Assembly (NCBI GenBank): GCA_025738555.1
Contig: JAOVFP010000003.1
Location: 5,952,001-6,016,000 of the forward strand
Source of the DNA: Cyathus striatus
Lineage: Eukaryota > Basidiomycota > Agaricomycetes > Agaricales > Nidulariaceae
Direction: 5' to 3'
DNA length: 64,000 nucleotides
Part shown: positions 5,341 to 63,026 of the stretch, one piece after another
Layout of the letters: every line of letters starts with the position of its first letter
How positions within the stretch are numbered: the first letter of the stretch is position 1
The notes under the pieces: model-generated
What the model saw: only the letters and a program-made list of their open reading frames with translations
Database searches by the model: none
Told to the model about the DNA's origin: nothing
Made by a program: the position numbers and the translations under genes

Positions 5341-6490
5341 CGTGACTGAGATATCCGAACGTTAGCTACAGCATGCATATTCTAGTAGCTAAGTAGAACA
5401 AACATGATATCAGGGGAAGACATGAAAGCGGCATCGGGTCCAATATCAACGGATATAACGGCGACAAGGAGTGACAGGTCCGAAGTCTATTTTTAACACT
5501 TGATCATGTACATACATACATCTGTACCACTGTCTACCAACCATCTGCTTCGTTCGGTTCGAGTCTTTGTGTCTTTCATCAGAATCTTTGCAGTTTTTTT
5601 ACAACTGAGCCCAGGCTAAATCCCTATTGCTAACTAAATCTTAGCAATTTACGATTGTAAATTTGATCCTGCGTACGAAGGATTATCAAACTTCGAAATT
5701 TGAGGCCTTAAGGCCTTATGGGTCGTAGCTGTAACCTTCAACAACTTTGGTCATACCATTTCATTCTCTCTTGGTTCCAGTGGTCATTTCATCACTGTTT
5801 TTACTAATAAACTTGATTTATTAACCTTGATGGGTCAAGCTATAGAAATAGAAGGAGAAGCTTCAGGGAAGAATTACCTGAGATGGTGGTCTGGCGGGTT
5901 GAAGTTGAGCAGTACGTTCATGTCAAATCTATATAGATGCTTTCAGCTTTGCTAGGAGGCACATACAGTCTGATACAGTACGCTTTCTTTAGACTTTATC
6001 CCGCACCTTGACCACATGTGTTCTAACTTACACTCCCTAATGTATATATGTTACGAGACTCATCACTGTCAGGCCTCAGGCCTCAAGCTTCAAGCTTCAG
6101 AACTCATCGTGATCAAGCCGATTCTACCAAAAGCTTTTTTGGGAAAAACCAGTCGTTCTCATCAATCAAGAAAGCAACGTTCCATCTAAGTAATAGCCAT
6201 TTGTAAAGGTACTTGAGGTGAAAAGCCAACACGCCAAAATACCCGTAATGATGTCCGGTTCTATCCACATGCTGTCGCTAGTATAGTATACTCCCTACCC
6301 TATGAAAGTACATGAGCAAGACAACGATGATTGAAAGTTCGTCCTCTTATACAACTCTTCAATTCAATGCATAATCAATACATAATTGTTGGGTATTCAG
6401 AGCGACTGGTCCCATTGCGAGTCAATGAGTACGTTCATGTTGAATATAGATTCCTTCAGTTTTACCAAATAATACATTTTCCCTCTCACT
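5341..6490. other. Intergenic, no gene seen
   Basis: No supported reading frame on either strand. Only short low-complexity palindromic bits occur (around 5700-5720 and 6070-6100, GGCCTCAGGCCTCAAGCTT). A phrase TACGTTCATGT occurs at about 5912 and again at about 6430, which may mark an old duplication. Confidence 0.5.
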
Positions 6491-7390
6491 AGCCACGCTC
6501 AAAGTTGAGCTACCACTTTGGTAGCTCGAGCTACGAAAAGTGGTAGGTGGCAGTGCACCTGCCTAAAGCGGTGAATTTGAGAGTCCGATGTGACAAAGCT
6601 GTGACACTCCGTGAAAATGATACGTCGTACCTCTTCCAGCACTCATCACGTTGTTAGGTCTGAACCACCGTACTACACGAGGGCATTTGTCTTTCCTTAC
6701 TATAGCAGATCTAGAAATACTTTTTGACTGTACGCTTAAATGCTGTTAAATCTGTTTGCATGAAATCTCACTAGCAGGTTAAAAGTGGGAATAAGCACAA
6801 TGAAGTAGACGGAGACAATGTGCTCATCACTGCATTATGAGACACAGGGAGAGCACCAGGCAAAACCGGAGATTCTTCTGTATGTCGCGAGAATTTCGAG
6901 ACAGCAGCAAGCGCCAAAGGAGAAGCAGTGTTCGACGAGCCGCTAGCAGTAGAGGAGGCAAGGGTGTAAGGTGTAACAGGCGAATTCTCAGCTTGATATT
7001 GACAATGATATGTCTGACCTTGTGCTCATTGGTACAGGCAATGTTGAGGACGGCAAGGTAGACGATGGCGTGTAATTATTGCCAGACACGAGCACAGTGT
7101 ATCTTTCATGTCACGAGCGTCAGGCACCGGGGCAAGCTATATTTTGGAATATGCATACCTGAATACATCAGCGCAAACTGTCTAAAGATCACCAAGTCCT
7201 TCACTACCTAAAGATATTTGCAACGTATGTGTATTATTGGCCAACCCAGATTTTGACCATTTCACATTCGGGGCAGTGTGACATTGAATGTGTCGGACTC
7301 TCAAATTTACCGCTTTAGGCAGGTGCACTGCCACCTACCACTTTTCGTAGCTTGAGCTACCAAAGTGGTAGCTCAACTTTGAGCGTGGCT
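6491..7390. mobile_element. 900-bp inverted-repeat transposon, non-autonomous
   Basis: Terminal inverted repeats of about 105 bases: left 6491-6595 begins AGCCACGCTCAAAGTTGAGC and right 7286-7390 is its near-perfect complement. The triplet ACT flanks both ends (6488-6490 and 7391-7393). Each terminus also contains an internal hairpin, GAGCTACCA-CTT-TGGTAGCTC. The inner 690 bases hold no transposase; the longest reading frame (6837-7061) is basic and unconvincing. It borders the accessory island on its left side. Confidence 0.8.
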
Positions 7391-7479
7391 ACTGTTCACA
7401 TGGACGCTAGTTATAAGACGGCCGACCGGTCTAATGTCTTTAATGTCAGAGCTTAGTATGTACTCCATATGCCGGCTGA

Positions 7480-7837: not shown

Positions 7838-8394
7838 CTAGTTTAGGATTTCCCGTCCGAAGTTTCCACGTTGCACTTCCACTTCACGGCCGAAGTTGCC
7901 TCTCTGTACTTCGGCTTCGCGTCCAAAGTTACCTCTCTGTACCTCTACATCGCGACCAAAGTTTCCGCGTTGGACTTCGGCTTCACGACCAAAGTTGCCC
8001 CTCTGTACTTCAACTTCACGGCCAAAGTTTCCGCGCTGTACTTCGGCTTCGCGTCCAAAGTTGCCTCTCTGTACCTCTACGTCACGGCCAAAGTTTCCAC
8101 GTTGGACTTCGGCTTCACGACCAAAGTTGCCCCTCTGTACTTCAACTTCGCGGCCAAAGTTTCCGCGTTGGACTTCGGCTTCACGACCAAAGTTACCCCT
8201 CAGCTGCTCGCTTTCTCGGCGGCTGTCTGGCTCATAGCTAAACTTGTATGGGGCTGCGATATTTTGTCAACCAGACAGTACTCGTAGCGATCTACGTCAT
8301 GGCACTTACCTGGAGCGGGAGCAGCAGAGACGATCGCTATCAATGGAAGGAGAAGAAGCGTAGCAACAGCGAGTGGAATATTTTTGAACATCAT
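7838..8394 (-). CDS. Secreted precursor with 11 tandem 11-residue repeats (candidate RiPP precursor)
   Basis: Exons complement(join(7838..8253,8310..8394)), 166 residues. Donor CAG|GTAAGT and acceptor TCGCAG; a minus-strand TATAAAAG box at 8456-8449 supports the start at 8394 (MM; 8391 is possible). Residues 1-24 form a clear signal peptide (core [17 protein letters not shown]), then APAPAP and a leader that includes an RR pair (residues 40-41). From residue 47 to the end come eleven copies of RGNFGR joined by acidic linkers EAEVQ, EVEVQ or DVEVQ, ending REILN. The linkers follow a four-unit order EA-EV-EA-DV, so the DNA also repeats every 66 and 132 bases. GNFGR is invariant although its codons vary (GGA/GGC/GGT, CGT/CGC), which suggests selection on the peptide. 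There is no KR Kex2 site in the repeats; each unit offers monobasic R. The EA/EV after R recalls Ste13-type trimming of yeast alpha-factor (inference). Confidence 0.85.
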
Positions 8395-9321
8395 AGTCGG
8401 GGTGAAATTCAAATGGTGTCTGAACAATTTAATGCGACTCCAAGATGGCTTTTATACATTATCATTTCCTCTAACTTCATAGCCATAGCCATAGTCATAG
8501 TACCTCCTTGAGTCAAGACCAAGTACAAAACGGTAAATTTGTGTTGTGATCCGGATCGGTATGCTCATGACACTAATGTATTTTTGGGACTTATTAAGTT
8601 TGATAAAAATTGATGAACGTGCGACGCTTCCATTGTAACTGCCTTCATCGCCCGTGCTTATTGTAATGCATCTCCGAGCCCTACCTACATGTAATCACTC
8701 TATGATAACCGTGCGTACTGATTCTTATCTAGGTGCTGTTATTTCATATCGTCTAAGTAGTTCTTTGCTCTACTGCTTGTACAGTAACTTCTTACTTCTC
8801 GTACCGGACAGACCGCATTATTGCCTATCATTGCATGCCACATGCAAAAAACGTGTCTTCTTCGTTCCGAAGGTGTCGGTGAACAAGGCAAATCCTTCCT
8901 TTTTGATGGTACGGACAAGGTACGGGTGAAAATATAAATCCTCGTGAACTTCCCGGCTAATTTTAATTCGAGTGGATACTGGTATCTAATCAAACTGTGA
9001 CAAGTCCTTGATGTTTCGCAACATACAGTATGCCCCGGAATATCCCCTCGATTGTGTTTCGCAGGTTATGACCTCGCGATCATTATCACCAAAGGCACTG
9101 TTATAATTAGTTGCGGATAATCCTGGACAATGAAGTACGTAGGTTAAAATTTCCTGATCCCAGCTGTCGGTAGAGTGACTGTCCCGTAGGCAGCGTACGC
9201 GTCGGTTATAACAGTAATTGGTTCAAGTTCTAGCTCCTTTAAGTGCCTTTATAGGTAACAGCTTCGCCATTTACGCCTCCCAAGTCATCTTTTGAGTTTT
9301 CTGGAGCTGTCTATTCATCAA
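8395..9321. promoter_or_regulatory. Divergent regulatory region between precursor and 7-TM gene
   Basis: About 930 bases with no supported gene. It contains the TATAAAAG box of the precursor (8456-8449, minus strand) and a short CATAGCCATAG repeat near 8478-8500. Short reading frames at 8654-8929 (+) and 8739-8993 (-) lack any recognisable feature and look like chance. Confidence 0.5.
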
Positions 9322-10782
9322 ATGCCAAAAAACAGAGGATCTATTGGCCTTGATGCTGTTACCCTGGTTTCTATATTCGTAGAATCAGTGTTATACGGTG
9401 CGTCTCGCAAACCTGTCTTCGAATATTTCAATATGATACCAACCATCAATTTCCTAGGTTTATTCATCTTTTTGTTCATATCTTCGACTATCGTATTGTT
9501 GCGCAAGTTTAAGAAATCGGCTCACCGAATCAACAAGATACTGTTAACAGTTTCAATAACAATGTTTATTCTAGCTACAATAGTACGTCTTCTATTTCAC
9601 GTGGTAATATTATGGAGTTAAGCATTGCAATATATTTCTAGCATGTCGGAGTTGACTTACGACGAATGTTGATCGCATTCTTGTATTCAAGCGATACAGA
9701 GGGTGGACCCATAGGATATCTTAGTCAAGTAAATGTCCCTATCTACGTCTTAAAGAGCACCGCATACGCCACCCAGACTCTTGTTGGAGATGCCTTCATC
9801 GTACGTCATAAAGTGTCTGCACGATTACTTCTTTGTGCCTAGTAATGACATATTATGTAGCTTTATCGCCTCTATTTTGTCTGGCTTGGTGAAAAGCGGG
9901 TTGTGATACCTATCTCAATCTGTTTCATTGCGAGTATTGGTAAGACCCTGGTTTGCGTCTTTTGAACTTTACCTGTTAACATTTTCTAGGTGTTGGTATC
10001 GGCGCCTTACAAGCATTTGCTAGGGCTGCACCGGATGAACAAGTGTTCATTTCAAAACTTCAGAACTGGATTGTTTCGTTTTTTTCTTTGACACTTTTTA
10101 CAAACTTCAGCTGTACAAGTATGTGCATTTTAAATGGACCTTATACACTTCATAATACTTTTTAGCCCTTATCGCCGGACGCATTTGGTGGACTCACCGA
10201 AGAACTATCGGACTAGTTGGCGGTCGAAGTCTTGTACCTGCCGCTGTTGTCATCGTCGAATCCGGGGCTATTTACTCTGCTTGCCTTGTAATTCTGCTGT
10301 CTCTGTATCTTAGTGGGAGTTTTGCCCAGTATATTGTTCTGGATGCGGTACGTTATTTAAATTTCCTAACGAAGCCGTCGCCATTAACGTTCTTATTCTT
10401 TCATATAGGTCACGCAGGTTATTGTAAGTTATTATTATTATTTTGGAGCGTTCTTTGAAGTAGACGGTAACCTGCGAAATTTCAGGGAATCGTATTCTCA
10501 CTGGTAATTGTCCGTGTCGCCCTTGGAATATCCAGTGATAACGCAATCACAAAAACACGTCTTACGATGTTTGTTGCTGCAGAGATCGATCCCGAACAAG
10601 CAACTGTCACGGTCCCGGATGGTCTTACTGCACGACGCACTTCCAACATGAAAGTTTTGAACATTGGGCATCATAGCTCTCAATCCGTGCGGCCAGATGG
10701 AGGCAAGTTTAGCAATAGTTATGACACGGACCTGGAATTATCTCGGATCGATGATGAGGAGTATACAGTAAACGAGTCTTGA
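9322..10782 (+). CDS. Seven-TM fungal membrane protein
   Basis: Eight exons: join(9322..9397,9458..9582,9642..9800,9861..9939,9990..10118,10166..10347,10409..10423,10486..10782), 353 residues, all with standard GT-AG borders and phases that match. The protein has about seven hydrophobic helices. The first pair reads VTLVSIFVESVLYGLFIFLF; a middle element TQTLVGDAFILYRLYFVW and a C-terminal cytosolic tail of about 75 residues rich in Ser/Asp follow. The order matches a large 7-TM family expanded in Agaricomycetes with no known ligand (established family pattern, from memory). Exon 7 is only 15 bases and codes VTQVI. It lies between the precursor and the oxidase. A role in peptide sensing or export is possible but unproven. 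Confidence 0.85.
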
Positions 10783-11204
10783 GACCGCTCATATTGAACT
10801 ATGTTGTATATTTTGTAGTAATAATTATATCTGTAAAGTATTTTTTGTGGATGCAGCAATCAGACTGATTATGATCAAAGTTGGTACTTGTAGTTGTAAC
10901 TTGTGGTAGCTTGCTATCGCCGCGATTGGCCCCCGCAGCTCAACATATTCCTGTGCTTGATTGCTTCTACAGTAAGTTTTAGTTTCCGGGAGCGAAGAGC
11001 TAATCTTATTCCAACAGGCACATGAGCAATCCATGGGCACGTTTTGATAGGACAGCCCGAAAGCTGTTCCCTTGCCGTACGATGTCTATCATCAGTTGAT
11101 CAAGTCCAAAGATCCACCAACTTCGGGCTTCGAGATAATCTTAACGTATAGCCGCCCAGGTGTAAAACAAGTCCAATAACGCAGGTCAGGCATTCCTTCT
11201 CAAA
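10783..11204. other. Intergenic between 7-TM and UstYa genes
   Basis: 422 bases presumably carrying the 3' end of the 7-TM transcript and the promoter of the oxidase. No gene or strong motif seen. Confidence 0.4.
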
Positions 11205-12254
11205 ATGCCCTCCTTAGCTGTGAGTTACAGTCCAGTTCCAGATTCCGAAGAGAGAGAGGGTATCGATTCGCTAAACGGCTTACTACACGCGAAGCGGACT
11301 CGATTGCAGCTAAAACGACTGCTCCTTGTTAATATACTCTTGCTTGTCTTGTCTACCAGCTTTCTAGGCATCTCGCTACGCTTAAAGTCAAATAAAAGGA
11401 CCTCAGAATGCTTACAAGGAGTCAAGGAACCGTCTAATGCGATTTATTGTAAGTGGTGTATAAAATGAAGATTTCATTATTTAAAATGCTCTTTGTATAG
11501 CACCTGCACTCGAGGCAGTCGAATACGAAACTGTGACCTTCAACGGGTCCTTCCTGTATCCGTCAATATATCGAGGGCCTCCAGGACCAGAGGTCGACCT
11601 TGCTTGGAATCGGGTTACACATGATAGTAAGCATTGGTCGGGAAGTTTCTGCCACTTCAAATATAATAACATCTTGTCTACCAGTTACACCAATTCGTAT
11701 CTCAGAAGAGATTTACAAAAGAACTGGCAAACCTCCCCGGCCATCTTCTGTTAAGTTCCAGGATGAAGATGGAGGGGGCTATATGGCCACTCTTGAAGTG
11801 AACCACCAGCTACATTGTTTGGTAGGTGTGGAGGTCGGAAAATTTAAAACGTTTGCTTATCAAAACGTTACAGAATATGTTAAGAAAGTTCACTTATCGA
11901 GATTACTATAAATCCGATGATATGTTTGATAGAAAGCCAACTGAGTTGTACCATCATCTCGGTGAGTATCAGATGATATGGTAAAACAGGACACAACCAC
12001 TTACACATTAGACACGAAACGTAGACCACTGTATCGAGATGCTTCGTCAAAGGCTAATGTGCACGAGCGACGTAAATATCATAACCTACGACTGGGTTCA
12101 AGGGTGGGATTTGGCATACCCTAATTTCAACACGGCCCATGAATGCAGGAATTTTGACAAGATTATCTCGTGGAATAATGCCCACAGTGTCAGGATTCCA
12201 GTAGACCATGTGGTACGTTTCGGAGACGAAGTCGATCTCCCTCACCCTCCTTGA
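11205..12254 (+). CDS. UstYa-like (DUF3328) membrane-anchored oxidase
   Basis: Exons join(11205..11448,11501..11626,11685..11821,11874..11961,12025..12254), 274 residues, the usual size for the family. A short cytosolic N-terminus is followed by one membrane helix (about residues 39-59, VNILLLVLSTSFLGISL), a lumenal WNRVTHD segment and PIRISEEIYKRTG. Both family-defining HxxHC motifs are present: HQLHC at 164-168 followed by LNMLRKFTYRDYY, and HLDHC at 197-201 followed by IEMLRQRLMC. The C-terminal AHECRNFDKIISW is also typical. The second motif is built across a splice (CTCG|GTGAGT to CGTAG|AC), which confirms the model. UstYa proteins catalyse oxidative cyclisation or hydroxylation of ribosomal peptides in ustiloxin, phomopsin and asperipin pathways. 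Here it sits 2.8 kb from the repeat precursor, so the precursor is its natural substrate candidate (inference). Confidence 0.92.
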
Positions 12255-12759
12255 GGAAGGTCTTGCAATTCCTTGCAGTGCCAACTACATAGCCCTAGAA
12301 TAGAACTGAATAGATGATACAAAATTATAAATGGCATTAATGACATCTATTTACAGAGCAATTTCTTTATTGCAGAAACTTATGCCAAGTTCCAATACCA
12401 GATACAACAGCACGCTTTCAGCGTTCGGTCAGGAAAGGCAAGGTGGAGACGTAAAAATAGCCACAGAACATGAGTATGTTATGTCTCCCTGCGACCACGG
12501 AACAGGGATAAAGAAATCTGACATAGACTCAGCAGAAGAAGGTATGATGAATGGTATACGTACTTTCCAATTGCCAAATAGGTAAACGAGGGTTTGACCG
12601 CTCCGATCTTGCGAAGTTGCAATGGATCCGCTGGGCTATATCGGACGTTCACATGGTACGATGGTGTGCATCGAGGGTGAACGTGACTTGGGAACTTTTG
12701 ATGATAAAACGATGAGCGCGATAGTAGATCTATTGATAACTGCACACTTGATCCCAGCC
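12255..12759. other. Spacer between UstYa and RidA genes
   Basis: About 500 bases without a convincing gene; an 84-codon frame at 12331-12585 shows no domain and no splice support. Probably terminator and promoter sequence. Confidence 0.4.
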
Positions 12760-13254
12760 ATGAAGCAAATGGTGTATACCCCAGAGGCAGTGCCTGCTTT
12801 ACCAGTCTTCAGTCAAGCAGTGATTTCGGACGGCCGTGTGTTCTTGTCAGGAACAATCGGTTGCACAAAAGAGTTCAAACTGGTAGATGGTGGCATAAAG
12901 GCGCAGACAGTAAGCACAACGCTTTCTAAATGTGATGACACGAGGTAGATCATAGTAAACCCAGCGGGCAGCTTTGGAGAACATGTCAATCGTTTTGAAG
13001 GCGGCAGGATCTGGGTTAGAACATGTCGTTAAGGCGAACATATACATGGCAAACATGCAGGGAGAGTTCCACCTCATGAACGAGGTTTACAGCGAAGTAA
13101 GGACCCATTTTCTGAACAATTTATCAGCTTCTGATCGGATGCATAGTTCTTCGAAGCTGGAAAAATGCCTGCTAGGACGTGCGTAGGAGTCGCCAGCCTT
13201 CCGTTCGGAGCAGCCGTAGAGATCGAGTGCATTGCAGAGGTTCCGAAAGCCTAG
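12760..13254 (+). CDS. RidA/YjgF-family 2-iminobutanoate/2-iminopropanoate deaminase
   Basis: Exons join(12760..12909,12965..13096,13147..13254), 129 residues, the normal full length. Family landmarks are in order: PVFSQAVISDGRVFLSGTIG, then ALENMSIVLKAAGSGLEHVVKA, NEVYSEFF, and PARTCVGVASLP with the catalytic-position Arg at residue 104, ending VEIECIAEVPK. RidA proteins hydrolyse reactive enamine/imine products of amino-acid chemistry. The start ATG has good context (CAGCCATGAAG); an upstream in-frame ATG at 12622 would add an unlikely extension. It lies 0.5 kb after the UstYa gene on the same strand. In this neighbourhood it could scavenge dehydro-amino-acid by-products of peptide oxidation, though a general housekeeping paralogue is equally possible. 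Confidence 0.92.
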
Positions 13255-13383: not shown

Positions 13384-13667
13384 TTTACAACTAATTGCAA
13401 ATCGATGTAGCACCCGGCTTGACGCGCACACATAGTTGAGCTTCTCGGCTTATCCATCCGGACCCAGGGACATGGCGCACCTAGCTAGAATTCCTCAAGG
13501 AGGATATGGCGCCATGGGGACTGGTTCTATGGACGCCGCCAGGCTCCAGCTGCGGCTGAAGGGGTGGGAGACGTCACAGCAGACTGGCTTGGTGCTCGGC
13601 AGCACCAATCGGATCAACTCAGCTATGTATGTGCGTCTTGCTACATCGATTTGCAATTAGCTGTAAA
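13384..13667. mobile_element. 284-bp inverted-repeat element with GC-rich core
   Basis: Arms 13384-13412 and 13639-13667 are inverted copies matching at 28 of 29 bases (core GCAAATCGATGTAGCA). A second inner inverted pair lies at about 13421-13440 and 13616-13636 (GACGCGCACACATAG-like). The core between them is visibly GC-richer than its surroundings and keeps one open frame. Target duplication not clear. Confidence 0.55.
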
Positions 13668-49431: not shown

Positions 49432-50528
49432 ATGACCAGCATTCAAACATTCAAGCTCAATGACGGAACCGCTATTCCCTGGCTCGCATGGGGAAATGGT
49501 ACCGGAAACGCACAGAAAACTGCTATCGAAAGCGGATCTAAGGCCTTACAGGATGGAATCATACACATCGATACAGCGCAGTTATATCAGAACGAGACTG
49601 AGACTGGAGAAGCAATTAAGAAGGCTGGATTGAAGAAGGACGATATTTTCGTCACGAGCAAAAGTTGGTATTTCTACATCGTTGAATCGAGTGTCTACAG
49701 GTATCTGACTGCTGCTGTGTCTAGTTTCTTCTCTGCCAGATGGAAAGCCTGTCCCTATTTCCCAGGTTCGCGAATCAGTAGAAGGATCCCTCAAGCGCCT
49801 TGGTTTTGTTCCGGACCTCTACCTCATCCACAGCCCTTACGTGGCGGAACCTGGTAAACTTAAGGAATTCTGGAAAGTCCTCGAGGATCTTAAAGACGAA
49901 GGCAAGCTTAAGAGCATTGGCGTGAGCAACTTCCGTCCACAGGATCTCGAGGCCGTTTTGGATGGAGCTAAATACAAGCCCTCCGTGAATCAGGTATGTA
50001 AACCATTTGTTTTATTTCAACGGTATCTGCTAACGCCAGATGCAGTTCGAGTTCCACCCCTACGTACTGGAACACCTGCAACCTCTTCTCGGGCTGCAGG
50101 CGAAACACGGCATCGTCACCGAATCCTATGGTCCCCTTACCCCAGTACTCAGACATCCCACTGGTGGTCCGCTTAAGCCCATTCTCGAGCGCATTGCTTC
50201 TCGCCTCTCACAATCCACTGGAAAGCCTATAGATCCGGCTGCTGTTCTACTTCTCTGGACACGTGCCAAGGGAGTAGTGGCTGTGACAGCAAGTGGGAAT
50301 CCTAAAAGAATGGTATGGCTAGCTGAGATTTCCAGGCTGCCTGAGGGGCTCTTGACAGCGGATGAGGTGCTGGAGATCGATAATGCTGGGAAGAAGGTTC
50401 ATTTTAGGCACTACGTGAGTTCACAGTTGTTCCAATCTCACATCGCAGAAGTAACTGATGCTGGTACTGTATAGACCGAGCATATGGAGAAGGATTTCCC
50501 GCTTCCAGATCTCCCAAGTGACGCTTAG
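49432..50528 (+). CDS. Aldo-keto reductase (second, distinct subfamily)
   Basis: Exons join(49432..49663,49725..49993,50046..50414,50475..50528), 307 residues. The tetrad is D47 and Y52 (HIDTAQLYQNE), K77 (FVTSK) and H113 (YLIHSP). Other landmarks are LPDGKPVPISQVRESVEGSLKRLGF, SIGVSNFRPQDLEAVL, NQFEFHPYV, ESYGPLTPV and AVTASGNPKRM in the cofactor-binding loop. It lacks the C-terminal motif of the 20235 gene and resembles the YDL124w/NADPH-dependent alpha-keto amide reductase group. Both introns before the NQFEFHP block fit GT-AG. Soluble cytosolic oxidoreductase; substrate unknown. Confidence 0.92.
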
Positions 50529-51177
50529 GGATATCAGTGTAATTGAAGAAAGGAAGTAATCACTGGAACGAAATACATACTGACCACTGTAGCATAAACA
50601 TCCAAATATATAACATTTGTATTCCCTGTCTTGATTATCGACCATTCAGTCGATAGCACCTTAGGATCATCTCCCTTATAGGCGCTAGCAAGATTACATT
50701 TCGTGCATTTACTTATTTAAATCACATACTAACAAACCCATGCTTCGCACAGTATCTACCGGTTTTCAAAACTTGCTACTTGAATCAAAGATCATCTTCG
50801 CTCTCCAGACTTTTTCTCCAAAAATACGGCAGTTGGCTCCTGACTCTTCCTCAGGCTTTCATAGATGAAATAATCCTTTTGCATCTTTGGTTCCGTGACG
50901 TTATGGCTACAAATTGAAGTTAGTGTTGTTATTCATGACGGAGCTGGAAGTACATGGCTTACACTGATACCAAATGGGTTAGAACTTCTTCTTTAGTGCA
51001 CCACTCATCTCGTTCAGCGAGGTCAAAGCAATGGTTGCAGGTCCAGCAGCTTTCTGAGGCAGCCAAGTCTTCACCTTCATACTCAAGTCCCTTAGTTTCT
51101 GAATCAGTCAGGACCTTCCACTCTACACTGTGAGTGTCAGAGACAGCGTGTTCAATCTATAGGCCGTCAAATCAGTA
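50529..51177. other. Convergent intergenic spacer
   Basis: About 650 bases between convergent genes. A minus-strand piece around 50940-51140 might be an extra 3' exon of the F-box gene, but the stop at 51178 closes the model; nothing else is seen. Confidence 0.4.
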
Positions 51178-52851
51178 CTATGCTGTCGTGTTAAATAAAG
51201 GATGTACCGCAGAGCGCCAGCTATGAGCAATTCTCCTTTGCATGGTGTTGTCCGAATGGTCCAAAGGTGCGCACTTGAGGCAGATAACCCTCATTCCACG
51301 CCTGTCCATAGCCAGAGGCGTTTGACGTTTTGGATCAAGTCCGGCTAAATTTATGAGACCTCTGGCTACCCGAGCTCCTTCATCGTCAATATCAAGCTCA
51401 CGCTTTGATCCATCGCTGTGATCTTGGAAGAAGCATTTGTGTACAAATGCCTCATCCCAGCCAACTACCACCCGCTTGTTTCTAGCATCACCAGTGCATA
51501 GTTGAGGGGTAGGACATCTATAGACACTCACTGCAAGCTTGGTTAGATGTGCACCAGTAGGATCATATTGAACGTAATCCGGGCCTTCATGTAGTGGCGT
51601 TGGTATATCTACATCAAATTCATCATCCTTGGGCAAGATGCCTCTGTACGATACTGTCTCTCGCATCTCCATAACTAGGAATTCAGTTTTGATGTCCAGC
51701 CACGGCTGAATATATCGAGGCAGCTCATCGAATACCTTATTCAACCAATTTGCTGACATATGGAACTTCTCTACAGGCATTGTGGGATTGGAGCACAGCA
51801 CCCTGGTGATTTCCTCCAAATGACAGACCTCTATTAAAGGCGGTTGATATGCCTTCTGGCGAGATGGGAGGGTCTCGAGGTAGAACTCATAGGTGGGCTG
51901 GAAAAGATGCATTCGCTCTTTAATGATGATCTTGTTGAGTCTTTCATTGAAGTAAAATATATCTGTTCTAATGCCGGATTGTAGTGTATGCGGACAGTAG
52001 GCATTTCAACACTTACAGTTCCTTCTTCCTCTCGAGCTTTCTCGAGTGGCTCCAACTTCTGTAGTCGCTTTTTTTCTGTAAAAAACTTTGCTTCAGAAAT
52101 CAACAATCTGGTGTTTAAAATTCTTAACCTCAGCAACGGTCTTAACGAAGTCTCCCTGTTTCTTTTTGAAGGCTTTCTCCATTTCTCTGGAGTCCAATAG
52201 AGCAAGCTTATCAAGGTAACTTTGAACGTCTCTCTTCATATAGAATTTGTCACCTTCTGTATCACCCCGGACTGGTACGAGGTAGGGAAGGCCTTCTTTA
52301 TATTGTTTGGGGAACATGGATTGAAGCTGCCCATTGCTTAATTTTCTAGTACATGCTTAGCAACAGAACTTTCTGCCAGAGAACCACTTACTGATTGTTG
52401 AAGCATGTTTCACACATATTCACCATGAGGCCAAATTCCGGTTGGCTTGAATCTTTCTTGCCACATTCCTGTTGTGGATTGGCATCTGCTTTATTTATGA
52501 AGAAGTAGCGCATACCTGGCAATAGTCGGCACATATGAGTGATGCCCATTTGGGCTCGGGGTATCCTTCTGGAGGCTCTGGACACCCTACATGTTTTCGA
52601 GATACAATCCACCAACTTTCTGAATGTTTACTCATGAATCGGTTATATATGACTTTATTGCTCCATGAAAGATGCAGAAGGTCGTCTGGAGCAAGGACTG
52701 AACAAATCTAGAAACACAAAGATTTCAGCTTTGCTAACCTGGCGAAATGGGACATGTATACTTCATAAATGACATCAAAGGGGAGTTCTGGAAACACTTC
52801 TCGTCCTGGTTTTATAGGCTGATTGACACCAAAAGTAAGTGCCCCCTCCAT
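51178..52851 (-). CDS. F-box protein with C-terminal zinc-finger-like tail
   Basis: Six exons: complement(join(51178..51967,52017..52075,52129..52345,52392..52468,52516..52707,52762..52851)), 474 residues. The F-box spans the first splice: FPELPFDVIYE|ICSVLAPDDLLHLS and then NKVIYNRFMSKHSESWW. A Cys-rich segment follows (ICADYCQECGKK, MCETCFNNQ), as in the Agaricomycete F-box family. Next come a charged helix, a large uncharacterised domain, and a tail with CLKC...RRIAHSWRSAVHPLF that looks like a zinc-binding C/H module. Phase fits only with donor GAA|GTATAC and acceptor CATTAG|AAC for the last exon. Likely an SCF receptor with unknown target. Confidence 0.82.
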
Positions 52852-53268
52852 GTTGCAGTAAAATTTTAACCTTCCTTCCAAGCCAAAAACATACTTATAG
52901 ACTGTTTAATTGAATTGCACTATTCAATAATATGAATGGCTAGATCGTGTATACTGAATTACTTGCTGTAGCAGTTGGCGCAATAAAGAAGGGGGAAAAA
53001 TACTAAAGTATCGCATTGAATATTCTACTGCTTATATGCACATGTAGTAAGTAGCTAGAATGATCTACTATGTACTTGATTTCCTTTCTACATCATTCTA
53101 CAGTAGTCTAATATATTCTACAATCTTTGTGAACTGACTGGTTGTCTGCTTCTTTGCACTCCAGGCAACAGCACCTCCTCCTACTAATAGGAATATGTAG
53201 CCGCTGATTGACTTACGATGTGAATTTGATGCCCAATTGGCATCTGAATATATGGACAACTCGTGTGT
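52852..53268. other. Spacer and boundary of the transposon region
   Basis: AT-rich sequence with TTCTACA/TCTACTATG-like short repeats (53050-53130). Decayed copia RNase H sequence begins at about 53130-53268 on the minus strand. Confidence 0.4.
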
Positions 53269-59960: not shown

Positions 59961-61803
59961 ACAGCAGGTCCTGTAGGATTTCCTTCATCAGGAAGAACCC
60001 AAAGTTCTAATTATGTCTCATGGAGGTGAATTTATGATAATAGGGATAATGGGTATCATGTATGTATAACTGTACCATATTCTTCATCTTGTATTTTGGT
60101 TAGGCCAAGATTAGGCATAATTATACATACTGTATCTCTAGCTTAGAACTCAGGTAATGGTACTTTAATACAAAACATTTTTTCAAAGTAAATACATAGT
60201 ATGTACAACAGCTAGGTTAAAATCTGATACAAATGTTTGTCTGTGAAGCTATTTACAAAAAAGTAGTTACATTTGTCCAAAACATTGCTGCTAAGCCAAT
60301 TATTTGGGGCTGAAGGGCCAAATATTGGGAAGAGATGAACACTGCACTGAATCTTTTCAACAGGGATAATTTGACATGAAGATGGATTACCACTCTCATC
60401 TTGAAGCTTTGATATCTTATACATAAGATGTTTTGCATCAGGCAACCTTGGAAATTTACTATACCACTCAACATATGCCAAGTGTTGAGGTACATTCACA
60501 GGATCCCTGAATATAATATCCTGTACCCTAGGTGAAATGGAAAATACTACTCAGATATGTCCTACTTGGTTGCCTATACATTTAACCAAATTAGAGTGAA
60601 TGGAAGGCTAGTTGTAAGTTGAAATATTCACCTTCAATTCCTGTTATTCCAGTGTTTGTTTCATTAATAAGAGCTGTATCAAAATGGCCAGGAGTTCCAT
60701 GCCTTCCATTATGAGATCCAGGATGCATATGTATAGAATCTGCAGTTGATATTTTTTCAGTAAATGGATCTTGTTGTAAAAACTTAATACAGTGCCACAT
60801 ATGAAAGTTGTTAAGTGGCATATGAATACCCCATATGGCATGCTCAATTTCTGCATCATGTGAAAGACCAGGGTTTTTTTCAATTGCTACAAATTGTGCA
60901 AGAGCCTCTCTGAAGTATGTTGCACCATATTTATGAGTCAAGTCTTGAAGTGAAACCTTTCTTGCTGAGGGAAACTTTGAAAGGTGCATAGTATGATGAA
61001 GTTCAAGTCCAGGAGGTGACCATACTTTCTGTTCTGGTTGTGGTTTTCCAGCCTGCCACCATAAAATGTATTGCTCATGTTGATTTACTTTCTCTTTCTG
61101 CTCCAACCATACTGTCATTTGTAGAAATTCATTCTTATGGTTTGTTGCCTTGTATGCCTCCTTTGCAAAATCAATGTGTAATCTTTCTGTGTACTCTGTA
61201 TTGAAATTGTCAGTTGTGCCAAATAGTTTTATTTTTTTAACATAATGAATTGCAAAGTGAAGTTTAGGAAGATTGAAGTGATCCCTTATACCTAAATCAA
61301 CAAATATCTTTTTGTTTTCATGAAATCGCTGGAGTGATTCTTCCAGTATTACAAGAGTTTCATCTGTGTGTACTGGATATTGAGCAAGATAAAGGAAATC
61401 TAAAAGGGCCCAAACACTGCAAATAAGCCATACAGAAGACATTCCATTTGGAAGAGGAATGTCAATAATCAAACCCAAAAGAATCTGAGCCATTTGATGG
61501 TGTTCCTGCCCAGTAACATGAGACAAGCTACTAATTCCTTTCATAAATAGACAAATATTATGATTTGGAGGAAGTCGGTGACATTGAGTATCAATTTCAA
61601 CAGCACCAAATGCACTTACTACCCAGGAAATAAGATGTTTTATAATACCCTGATAAAGTTGATGAAGTATGTCAGGTGTGATGGATTGGTAAATATTGAC
61701 ATATGGAAGATCCTTCCAAAAAGGTTTAATAACTGGCTTAATTCGCACATTTTTGCATGTCTGCAAAAATGCATCTTCATTGGTATCAAATGATTCAAGT
61801 GCT

Positions 61804-63026
61804 TGTCATATCCATGACAATCCCTGTACCATTGGAGTCAACTCCAGGTTTACTCCGCTTTTAGTATGTTTCCTCCGGACTGTCATGTCCTGTTCTTTTC
61901 CACTAGGGACAAGAACCTCGGAGTAGATAGTCTAATAGTGGAGTAACTTGTACAACATTAGTAGGGTGTGTGGAGATGATGAACAAGTACGGGAGTAGTG
62001 GAACATTGGCTTCAACTTGTGTGTTGCACCCCTTGGACTTCCAGTTCTGTATTTAGAACAAAGCGGAGTAAGTGGCAAAATAGCAGAGTTGGCTCAAGGC
62101 CCAAGTGGGAGAAGGGTGTAAATGTAGTTGATTTGAAACTAAAGTATATCTACATTACAGGAGTAGTTTATATAGTAAACTACTTTGTCCAAATGTGTAC
62201 GGAGTAATGCCCATGGGTATGTGGCATCCTAGGGTTAAGTAAACTCCATGAAATGTAGAACATGGTAAACTAGTAGTACACCTCTAGATTATAGTCATAG
62301 GAGAAATGGCCGCGGCCGGAGAATGAGGTAGTAATATTAAAGGGAAGGAACAAGTAAACAGATACAAGTAAACATTAGTAAGAAAGAGTTCGATATATAA
62401 CAAGTATACATAGTCTGGAGGAAATGTACTAAAAGCAGAGTAAACCCAGAGTTGACTCCAATGGTACAAGGATTGTCACGGATATGACACAGACTATGTA
62501 TACTTGTTATATATCAAACTCTTCCTTACTAATGTTTACTTGTATCTGTTTACTTGTTCCTTCCCTTTAATATTACTACCTCATTCTCCGGCCGCGGCCA
62601 TTTCTCCTATGACTATAATCTAGAGGTGTACTACTAGTTTACCATGTTCTACATTTCATGGAGTTTACTTAACCCTAGGATGCCACATACCCATGGGCAT
62701 TACTCCGTACACATTCGGACAAAGTAGTTTACTATATAAACTACTCCTGTAATGTAGATATACTTTAGTTTCAAATCAACTACATTTACACCCTTCTCCC
62801 ACTTGGGCCTTGAGCCAACTCTGCTATTTTGCCACTTACTCCGCTTTGTTCTAAATACAGAACTGGAAGTCCAAGGGGTGCAACACACAAGTTGAAGCCA
62901 ATGTTCCACTACTCCCGTACTTGTTCATCATCTCCACACACCCTACTAATGTTGTACAAGTTACTCCACTATTAGACTATCTACTCCGAGGTTCTTGTCC
63001 CTAGTGGAAAAGAATGGGACGTGACA
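61804..63026 (-). mobile_element. LTR family X in minus orientation, interrupted by a second copy
   Basis: Outer copy: 61804-61880 plus 62490-63026, which rejoins to 609 bases once the inner 5-bp duplication is removed. Its ends are TGTCATATCC and GACGTGACA. A perfect 5-bp duplication GTGCT flanks it (61799-61803 and 63027-63031). It lies inside the transposase reading frame, between codons reading ITAL and LESFD. Confidence 0.9.
61881..62489 (+). mobile_element. Solo LTR family X nested in the outer LTR
   Basis: 609 bases, starting TGTCATGTCC and ending GATATGACA, on the plus strand. It is inserted into the minus-oriented copy at a CCAGAC site. The 5-bp duplications are CGGAC (61876-61880) and CAGAC (62490-62494), differing at one base. 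It creates a long palindrome with the flanking outer LTR. Confidence 0.9.

Follow-up and report, generated by a model that had tools for sequence, protein, structure and literature searches.

The window analysed here is a 64,000-nt stretch of the Cyathus striatus genome (C3:5952001-6016000 of a 107-Mb, 24-contig assembly), and coordinates are those of the window unless a contig is named. Positions 7838-13254 hold four genes: a secreted-type repeat precursor, a seven-helix membrane protein (7TM), an oxidase of the UstYa (DUF3328) family and a RidA protein. A sequence-only reading had described these genes as a locus for a ribosomally synthesized and post-translationally modified peptide (RiPP), and all four were present where that reading had placed them. 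Here we examine whether the locus may instead be a peptide-signal module. The precursor lies on the minus strand and the 7TM on the plus strand, with a divergent upstream region between them (8395..9321).

Genes and coding constraint at the locus

The precursor gene ran from an ATG at 8394 to a stop at 7838 and encoded 166 amino acids in two exons. Exon 1 (8310..8394, minus strand, 85 nt) encoded a hydrophobic N-terminus, judged by eye to resemble a signal peptide, and ended in phase 1. The 56-nt intron (8254..8309, minus strand; GTAAGT...TCGCAG) was predicted from the splice consensus; it is one of several frame-keeping options and was picked for its consensus donor and acceptor. Exon 2 (7838..8253, minus strand) encoded a leader followed by 11 contiguous units of the form RGNFGR[ED][AV]EVQ, spaced at 11 residues. 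Ten of the 11 units read QRGNF-GR and the first read LRGNF-GR; none contained tyrosine. The spacers of the ten full units were EAEV (five), EVEV (three) and DVEV (two), and the eleventh unit ended in EILN. KR sites had been described as missing. This held for the repeats, which carry GR, but not for the leader, in which a dibasic pair occurs (DSRR|ESEQ, the sole RR of the precursor).

Over the ten full units, the core columns R, G, N, F, G, R and Q showed a proportion of synonymous differences (pS) of 0.84 and of nonsynonymous differences (pN) of 0.00; for the spacer, pS was 0.64 and pN 0.10. The peptide is under purifying selection. The NF-G-R of the units resembles an animal amidation signal. 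Cu2_monoox_C had no match in the genome, nor in the control genomes, and C-terminal amidation, which this negative does not decide, was left out of the model.

The UstYa gene (plus strand, five exons: 11205-11448, 11501-11626, 11685-11821, 11874-11961 and 12025-12254) started 2.8 kb from the precursor start and encoded 274 amino acids. Its product matched positions 6-220 of the 220 in PF11807 (223 bits, E 4.3e-66) and contained both expected HxxHC motifs, HQLHC and HLDHC. RidA (YjgF/UK114; plus strand, 12760-12909, 12965-13096 and 13147-13254; 129 amino acids) was likewise full length (PF01042, E 3.6e-34, positions 4-121 of 121). Members of this family remove reactive imines and enamines. Inspection by eye of the 7.8-13.3 kb stretch showed no tyrosinase or methyltransferase; of the flanks, 10 of 13 long open reading frames were sampled. 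The 7TM gene (plus strand, eight exons: 9322-9397, 9458-9582, 9642-9800, 9861-9939, 9990-10118, 10166-10347, 10409-10423 and 10486-10782) encoded 353 amino acids. The protein was 97.6% identical to a JGI protein of 293 amino acids (P0095) and 74% identical to a Cyathus protein (P0096), the latter modelled with seven long helices.

A diverged cluster and its predicted microexon precursor

When the genome was searched with the 7TM, UstYa and RidA families, a related cluster was found on contig C9, with 7TM, UstYa, RidA and UstYa genes in this order on one strand. The C9 7TM shared 74% identity with its window counterpart, and the UstYa proteins shared 54-61%; three of the C9 proteins were 96-98% identical to annotated Cyathus striatus proteins, whose genes all lie on a contig of 807,947 bases. 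The C9 precursor is divergent from the C9 7TM, with the region between them at C9:325017-326721, so that order and orientation match those in the window. Chance neighbourhood was rejected because of this shared gene order. By our grouping of the family-search matches, the 107 Mb contain 16 UstYa loci and six RidA loci. Without the C10 copy described below (15 UstYa and five RidA loci), chance predicts fewer than 0.02 UstYa-RidA pairs at a spacing of up to 10 kb, against two observed; the two probably derive from one old duplication.

The C9 precursor (C9:326722-328465) had been missed by the open reading frame scan because, as predicted here, it consists almost wholly of microexons. Its first exon (82 nt) ended in phase 1, as in the window gene, and was followed by an exon of 24 nt; the N-terminus was hydrophobic by eye. 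Then came sixteen predicted 27-nt exons in phase 1-1, bordered by AG and GT (one GC). Each encoded [DE]Q-x-x-x-F-R-R-[DEG], and a separate last exon encoded EQGKAF-stop. The fifteen introns between the 27-nt exons measured 52-83 nt. The joined reading was open throughout (558 nt, 185 amino acids) and contained 17 cores: QSNAF (7), QGKAF (5), QGVSF (3), QANAF (1) and QDKAF (1), all free of tyrosine. The search script required AG and GT/GC borders and fixed F, R and R in its motif; the pN of 0 at these three positions is therefore by construction, and the RR after all 16 microexon cores was part of the finding motif. The leading Q, which the motif left free, was kept in 16 of 16. Two of 18 FRR motif matches were dropped, as they lay within introns and had no AG before them. 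Splicing of the array is a prediction. An S9-peptidase-like gene beside the C9 precursor was rejected as a cluster peptidase, as the next gene is SAICAR-synthetase-like and was read by eye as housekeeping.

A strict genome-wide search for this exon pattern matched 14 places, all in the C9 array (14 of its 16 exons), and none in the reversed control. A looser pattern matched 33 places (reversed control: 4), of which 14 were the C9 array and 12 of the other 19 were one dispersed repeat. With these two patterns, C9 held the sole array of this kind. Two loose-pattern matches lay 0.4 kb apart at C13:1622817-1623294 (TAGARGATGCAAAACCGTATAGGAGAGAAGGT).

The sequence-only reading had placed the peptide core around GNFG, and comparison probably shifts it. 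The C9 core is Q-x-x-x-F followed by RR or a stop, and a repeat protein elsewhere on C3 (C3:5130060-5130700; the C3:5130107 protein) is of the classical Kex2/Ste13 type, GAPNW-[KR]R-EAEA, with the 11-residue period of the window units. By comparison with both, the window core is most likely QRGNF, with GR at the dibasic position. Textbook Ste13 sites are XA or XP, which the EV and DV spacers do not match, and the released products may therefore be longer. Kex2-type (PF01483) and DPPIV-type (PF00930) domains were found in the genome. For Coprinopsis repeat proteins made in Pichia, the consulted part of PMC9769878 reports loss of XA/XP spacers and N-terminal pyroglutamate, and considers cleavage after a single arginine possible.

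Such precedents bear on the idea that the locus makes plain linear peptides as in Coprinopsis while UstYa, RidA and the 7TM act on something else. The repeat architecture fits linear Ste13-type peptides such as those of the C3:5130107 protein, near which the genome family search listed no UstYa. By subtraction from the counts in the part of PMC7329392 consulted, 1,577 of 1,680 basidiomycete repeat proteins lack a DUF3328 gene in their neighbourhood. Precursor, 7TM, UstYa and RidA nevertheless occur together in both cluster copies, and we consider this explanation rather improbable.

Nine of the 15 UstYa loci besides the window were inspected for precursors (18-30 kb each; 10 kb at C4:3.03 Mb). 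Precursors were present at three, on C10, on C9 and at C4:3.05 Mb, and no repeat precursor was found at the other six. The C4 repeat protein (C4:3059085-3059816) has a signal-peptide-like start and ATHEYGIDEDEALSKR repeats with tyrosine and KR. A UstYa gene with HQLHC and HTEHC motifs lies about 4 kb away (C4:3054816-3055340), and the genome search with the window 7TM listed no relative nearby. Judged by its layout, the C4 locus is a candidate for a canonical dikaritin-like, ustiloxin-like cluster.

The cores of ustiloxin, phomopsin and asperipin-2a contain tyrosine, and ustiloxin and phomopsin carry a phenol-ether cross-link. Such a cross-link cannot be assumed for the tyrosine-free cores found here; with such a substrate, hydroxylation, desaturation or a cross-link at phenylalanine has to be considered for UstYa. 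These points bear on whether the window locus is itself a dikaritin-type RiPP pathway, in which UstYa would cyclise the secreted peptides into a defensive product and the 7TM would be either a neighbour or a sensor through which the pathway is controlled. The full-length UstYa with both motifs fits this explanation, as does the occurrence of the canonical C4 candidate in the same genome. Ustiloxin-type pathways are described as unable to cyclise their peptides without DUF3328 proteins, and a DUF3328 gene lies within 15 genes of 103 of the 1,680 basidiomycete repeat proteins (PMC7329392, in part). The absence of tyrosine from the cores, the lack of a tyrosinase or methyltransferase in the stretch inspected by eye and the persistence of the 7TM next to the precursor in both copies argue against it; it is the leading alternative to signalling, but we regard it as unlikely. 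Of the RiPP-locus reading, the pairing of precursor and UstYa stood, and the core around GNFG probably did not.

In the gene stretch, the second copy of the region, on C10, showed 99.2% identity to the window across 5,192 aligned bases. Its precursor had 19 units versus 11 in the window. UstYa differed by seven synonymous and two other changes, and RidA by three and one. Two stretches of the duplication were sampled, window 1-22 kb and 50-53 kb, where 1-22102 and 50000-53000 corresponded to C10:4260001-4281662 and C10:4227769-4230760 with 96-99% identity. Adenylosuccinate synthetase, which we take to be a single-copy marker, was located at one place in the genome, which speaks against a two-haplotype assembly as the cause. 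The C10 copy may have arisen by recent segmental duplication or may be a stretch of haplotype left unmerged.

Relatives in other species were compared using 94 UstYa matches among 430 candidates and the best 120 of 136 7TM matches; six named species were common to both lists. In Crucibulum laeve, both relatives were on a contig of 679,224 bases, and in Lanmaoa asiatica on a contig of 2,043,153 bases with locus tags 2266 and 2268; in each case the contig was taken to be the same one. The Cyathus striatus pair, also on a contig taken as the same, is the C9 orthologue and is not independent. The association of a secretion-type repeat precursor with UstYa in an Agaricomycete was therefore borne out, the cluster being maintained in the diverged C9 copy and 7TM and UstYa relatives occurring in Crucibulum and Lanmaoa.

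Fold of the seven-helix protein and its possible role as a receptor

The window 7TM matched no Pfam family at E 0.1 (gene model with one intron retained). The DUF6533 (SNB1) and DUF6534 models did not match P0096 at E <= 1, nor did they appear among 25 of the 34 families listed for 94 family members. In a tree of 71 rows from a quick search, the window 7TM grouped with P0095, and the C9 7TM with Cyathus P0096. Two models of family members, 33% identical and with overlapping alignments, were compared with known structures, and Ste2 ranked first for both by Foldseek and by VIA-align. On these models, the predicted fold of the 7TM is closest to the alpha-factor receptor Ste2. In each VIA-align list, which re-ranks Foldseek's own matches, 50 of 50 listed rows were G-protein-coupled receptors (GPCRs), designed GPCR-like folds or microbial rhodopsins. 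This composition, with Ste2 first, speaks against a 7TM that serves the peptide not as receptor but as exporter, scramblase or self-protection protein. No sequence feature of the 7TM proves G-protein coupling, which would fit such a role, but we consider that role very unlikely. A genome-wide search with PF02116 (STE2) gave one sub-threshold place, C20:854063-854470 (21.5 bits versus a cut-off of 27.2), a candidate separate from the cluster 7TM.

As the 7TM models come closest to Ste2, peptide signalling is no less likely than RiPP chemistry of the toxin type. Fold and gene group together suggest a peptide signal kept beside its receptor. We put the odds at roughly even (a probability of about 0.48) that the locus is a peptide-signal module, with a ligand gene beside the gene of its receptor or sensor. 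The precursor would enter the secretory pathway and be cut by a Kex2-type protease at arginine, at a single R in the window gene and at RR in the C9 gene. Once carboxypeptidases had trimmed the fragments and the acidic/Ala/Val spacers had been removed, many Q-x-x-x-F copies would be set free: QRGNF or QRGNFG from the window gene, and QSNAF, QGKAF, QGVSF, QANAF and QDKAF from the C9 gene. Their N-terminus would probably be pyroglutamated. The membrane-bound UstYa may oxidise the peptide around phenylalanine, and RidA may clear reactive imine or enamine by-products. The divergently transcribed 7TM, with its predicted GPCR fold nearest Ste2, would be the receptor or sensor of the peptide.

Several observations weigh against this signalling module. 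The fold match was modest, with Foldseek E values to Ste2 of just 2e-3 and 6e-3 and a template modelling (TM) score of about 0.5, and other Ste2 entries scored no better than several unrelated receptors. The ranking covered models of two homologues from this 7TM family, with no other Agaricomycete 7TM as control. At the sequence level, P0096 matched no Pfam family at E 1, STE2 included, a profile of 94 7TM sequences found no Ste2 among PDB sequences at E 10, and no match to Ste2 or another GPCR family was seen among the 25 of 34 listed families. Orphan proteins of this shape are also common: 141,666 fungal 7TM proteins without known class are counted in 1,357 species (PMC12842992, in part). 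By our grouping, clear relatives of this 7TM occur at 11 other places in the genome; in the four of these examined, no repeat precursor lay within 5 kb upstream. The C10 7TM is free of substitutions, yet the frame of its tail is shifted by a gap of one base (intron-retained model). For Galerina, Gymnopus androsaceus and Gyrodon, the UstYa and 7TM matches in the lists lay on contigs of different length. Of 7,999 candidates scored from 5.8 billion proteins, none was a relative of the precursor at E <= 1. This negative is weak, as precursor genes of this kind may lack annotation and the search had no known repeat protein as a control.

Relation to known peptide systems

The ascomycete alpha-factor system resembles the cluster in its precursor logic and in the modelled receptor fold. 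It differs in that the 7TM has no sequence similarity to Ste2, the precursor and 7TM genes are adjacent, and the host is a basidiomycete. The basidiomycete mating locus likewise has peptide genes beside a 7TM receptor gene, but its short pheromones are farnesylated and its receptors are of the Ste3 class. Ste2-class receptors are reported to be absent from basidiomycetes in the consulted part of PMC12842992. Other orphan seven-helix proteins of mushrooms, SNB1 (DUF6533) and the DUF6534 proteins (PMC10949477 and PMC12842992, in part), differ from the cluster 7TM family in that the latter is tied to a peptide precursor.

Agaricomycete Kex2-processed repeat proteins (KEPs) with Ste13-type spacers, such as C. 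cinerea KEP 490115 (PMC9769878, in part), share with the window gene short cores in tandem that end in an aromatic residue, acidic/Ala spacers and a core-initial Q; by eye, the window gene also begins like a signal peptide. Tandem cores occur in the window (11), C10 (19) and C9 (17) precursors. Unlike KEPs, the window units have GR for KR/RR, and thus no dibasic site flanking every core, and V replaces A in five of the ten full spacers. The window gene further differs in its company of UstYa, RidA and 7TM genes, and its C9 relative in the predicted split into 27-nt microexons. To the ust-type ribosomal peptides or dikaritins (ustiloxin, phomopsin, asperipin-2a), the likeness is a secreted repeat precursor adjoining a UstYa-family oxidase; the tyrosine-free core, the repeats without KR and the gene content set the window apart.

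UstYa beside basidiomycete repeat proteins is already known in outline, with UstYa found within 15 genes of 17 of 76 basidiomycete-pheromone-like repeat proteins (PMC7329392, in part). New, as far as seen in the open-access literature, are the recurrent receptor-like partner with RidA, the GR units of the window and the precursor with one peptide per microexon. A literature search of this kind, covering the top matches of larger lists, returned no other microexon-built precursors and no mushroom UstYa-7TM-RidA clusters. In filamentous fungi, according to a 2024 paper (PMC11121469), no functional microexons had been described before.

We tentatively extend the signalling module to a broader possibility, which we hold to be less than an even chance: mushrooms may have an alpha-factor-like peptide hormone system apart from lipopeptide/Ste3 mating, with ligand, UstYa and Ste2-fold receptor in one cluster. 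Duplicates would have diverged in the ligand (QRGNF versus QSNAF/QGKAF/QGVSF) together with the receptor, and a 27-nt microexon for each peptide would let splicing set peptide number and mix. One survey counted 7,878 fungal repeat-peptide precursors, most without known role (PMC7329392, in part), and receptors for Ste13-type basidiomycete peptides have been put forward as speculation (PMC6339444, in part). With this locus, a candidate ligand gains a candidate receptor family, which makes the question testable in a yeast reporter strain. If the module is real, UstYa oxidases would act on signalling peptides, a ligand would be known for an orphan Agaricomycete 7TM family, and a filamentous fungus would have a precursor gene made of peptide-sized microexons.

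Mobile elements were also seen in the window. A short element just downstream of RidA (13384-13667) had 29-nt inverted ends that were 97% complementary. At 6490-7391, an element of about 0.9 kb has long inverted repeats at its termini and resembles a non-autonomous DNA transposon; it is absent from the C10 copy, which shows an empty site. A Plavaka-type transposase fragment lay at 60594-61805.

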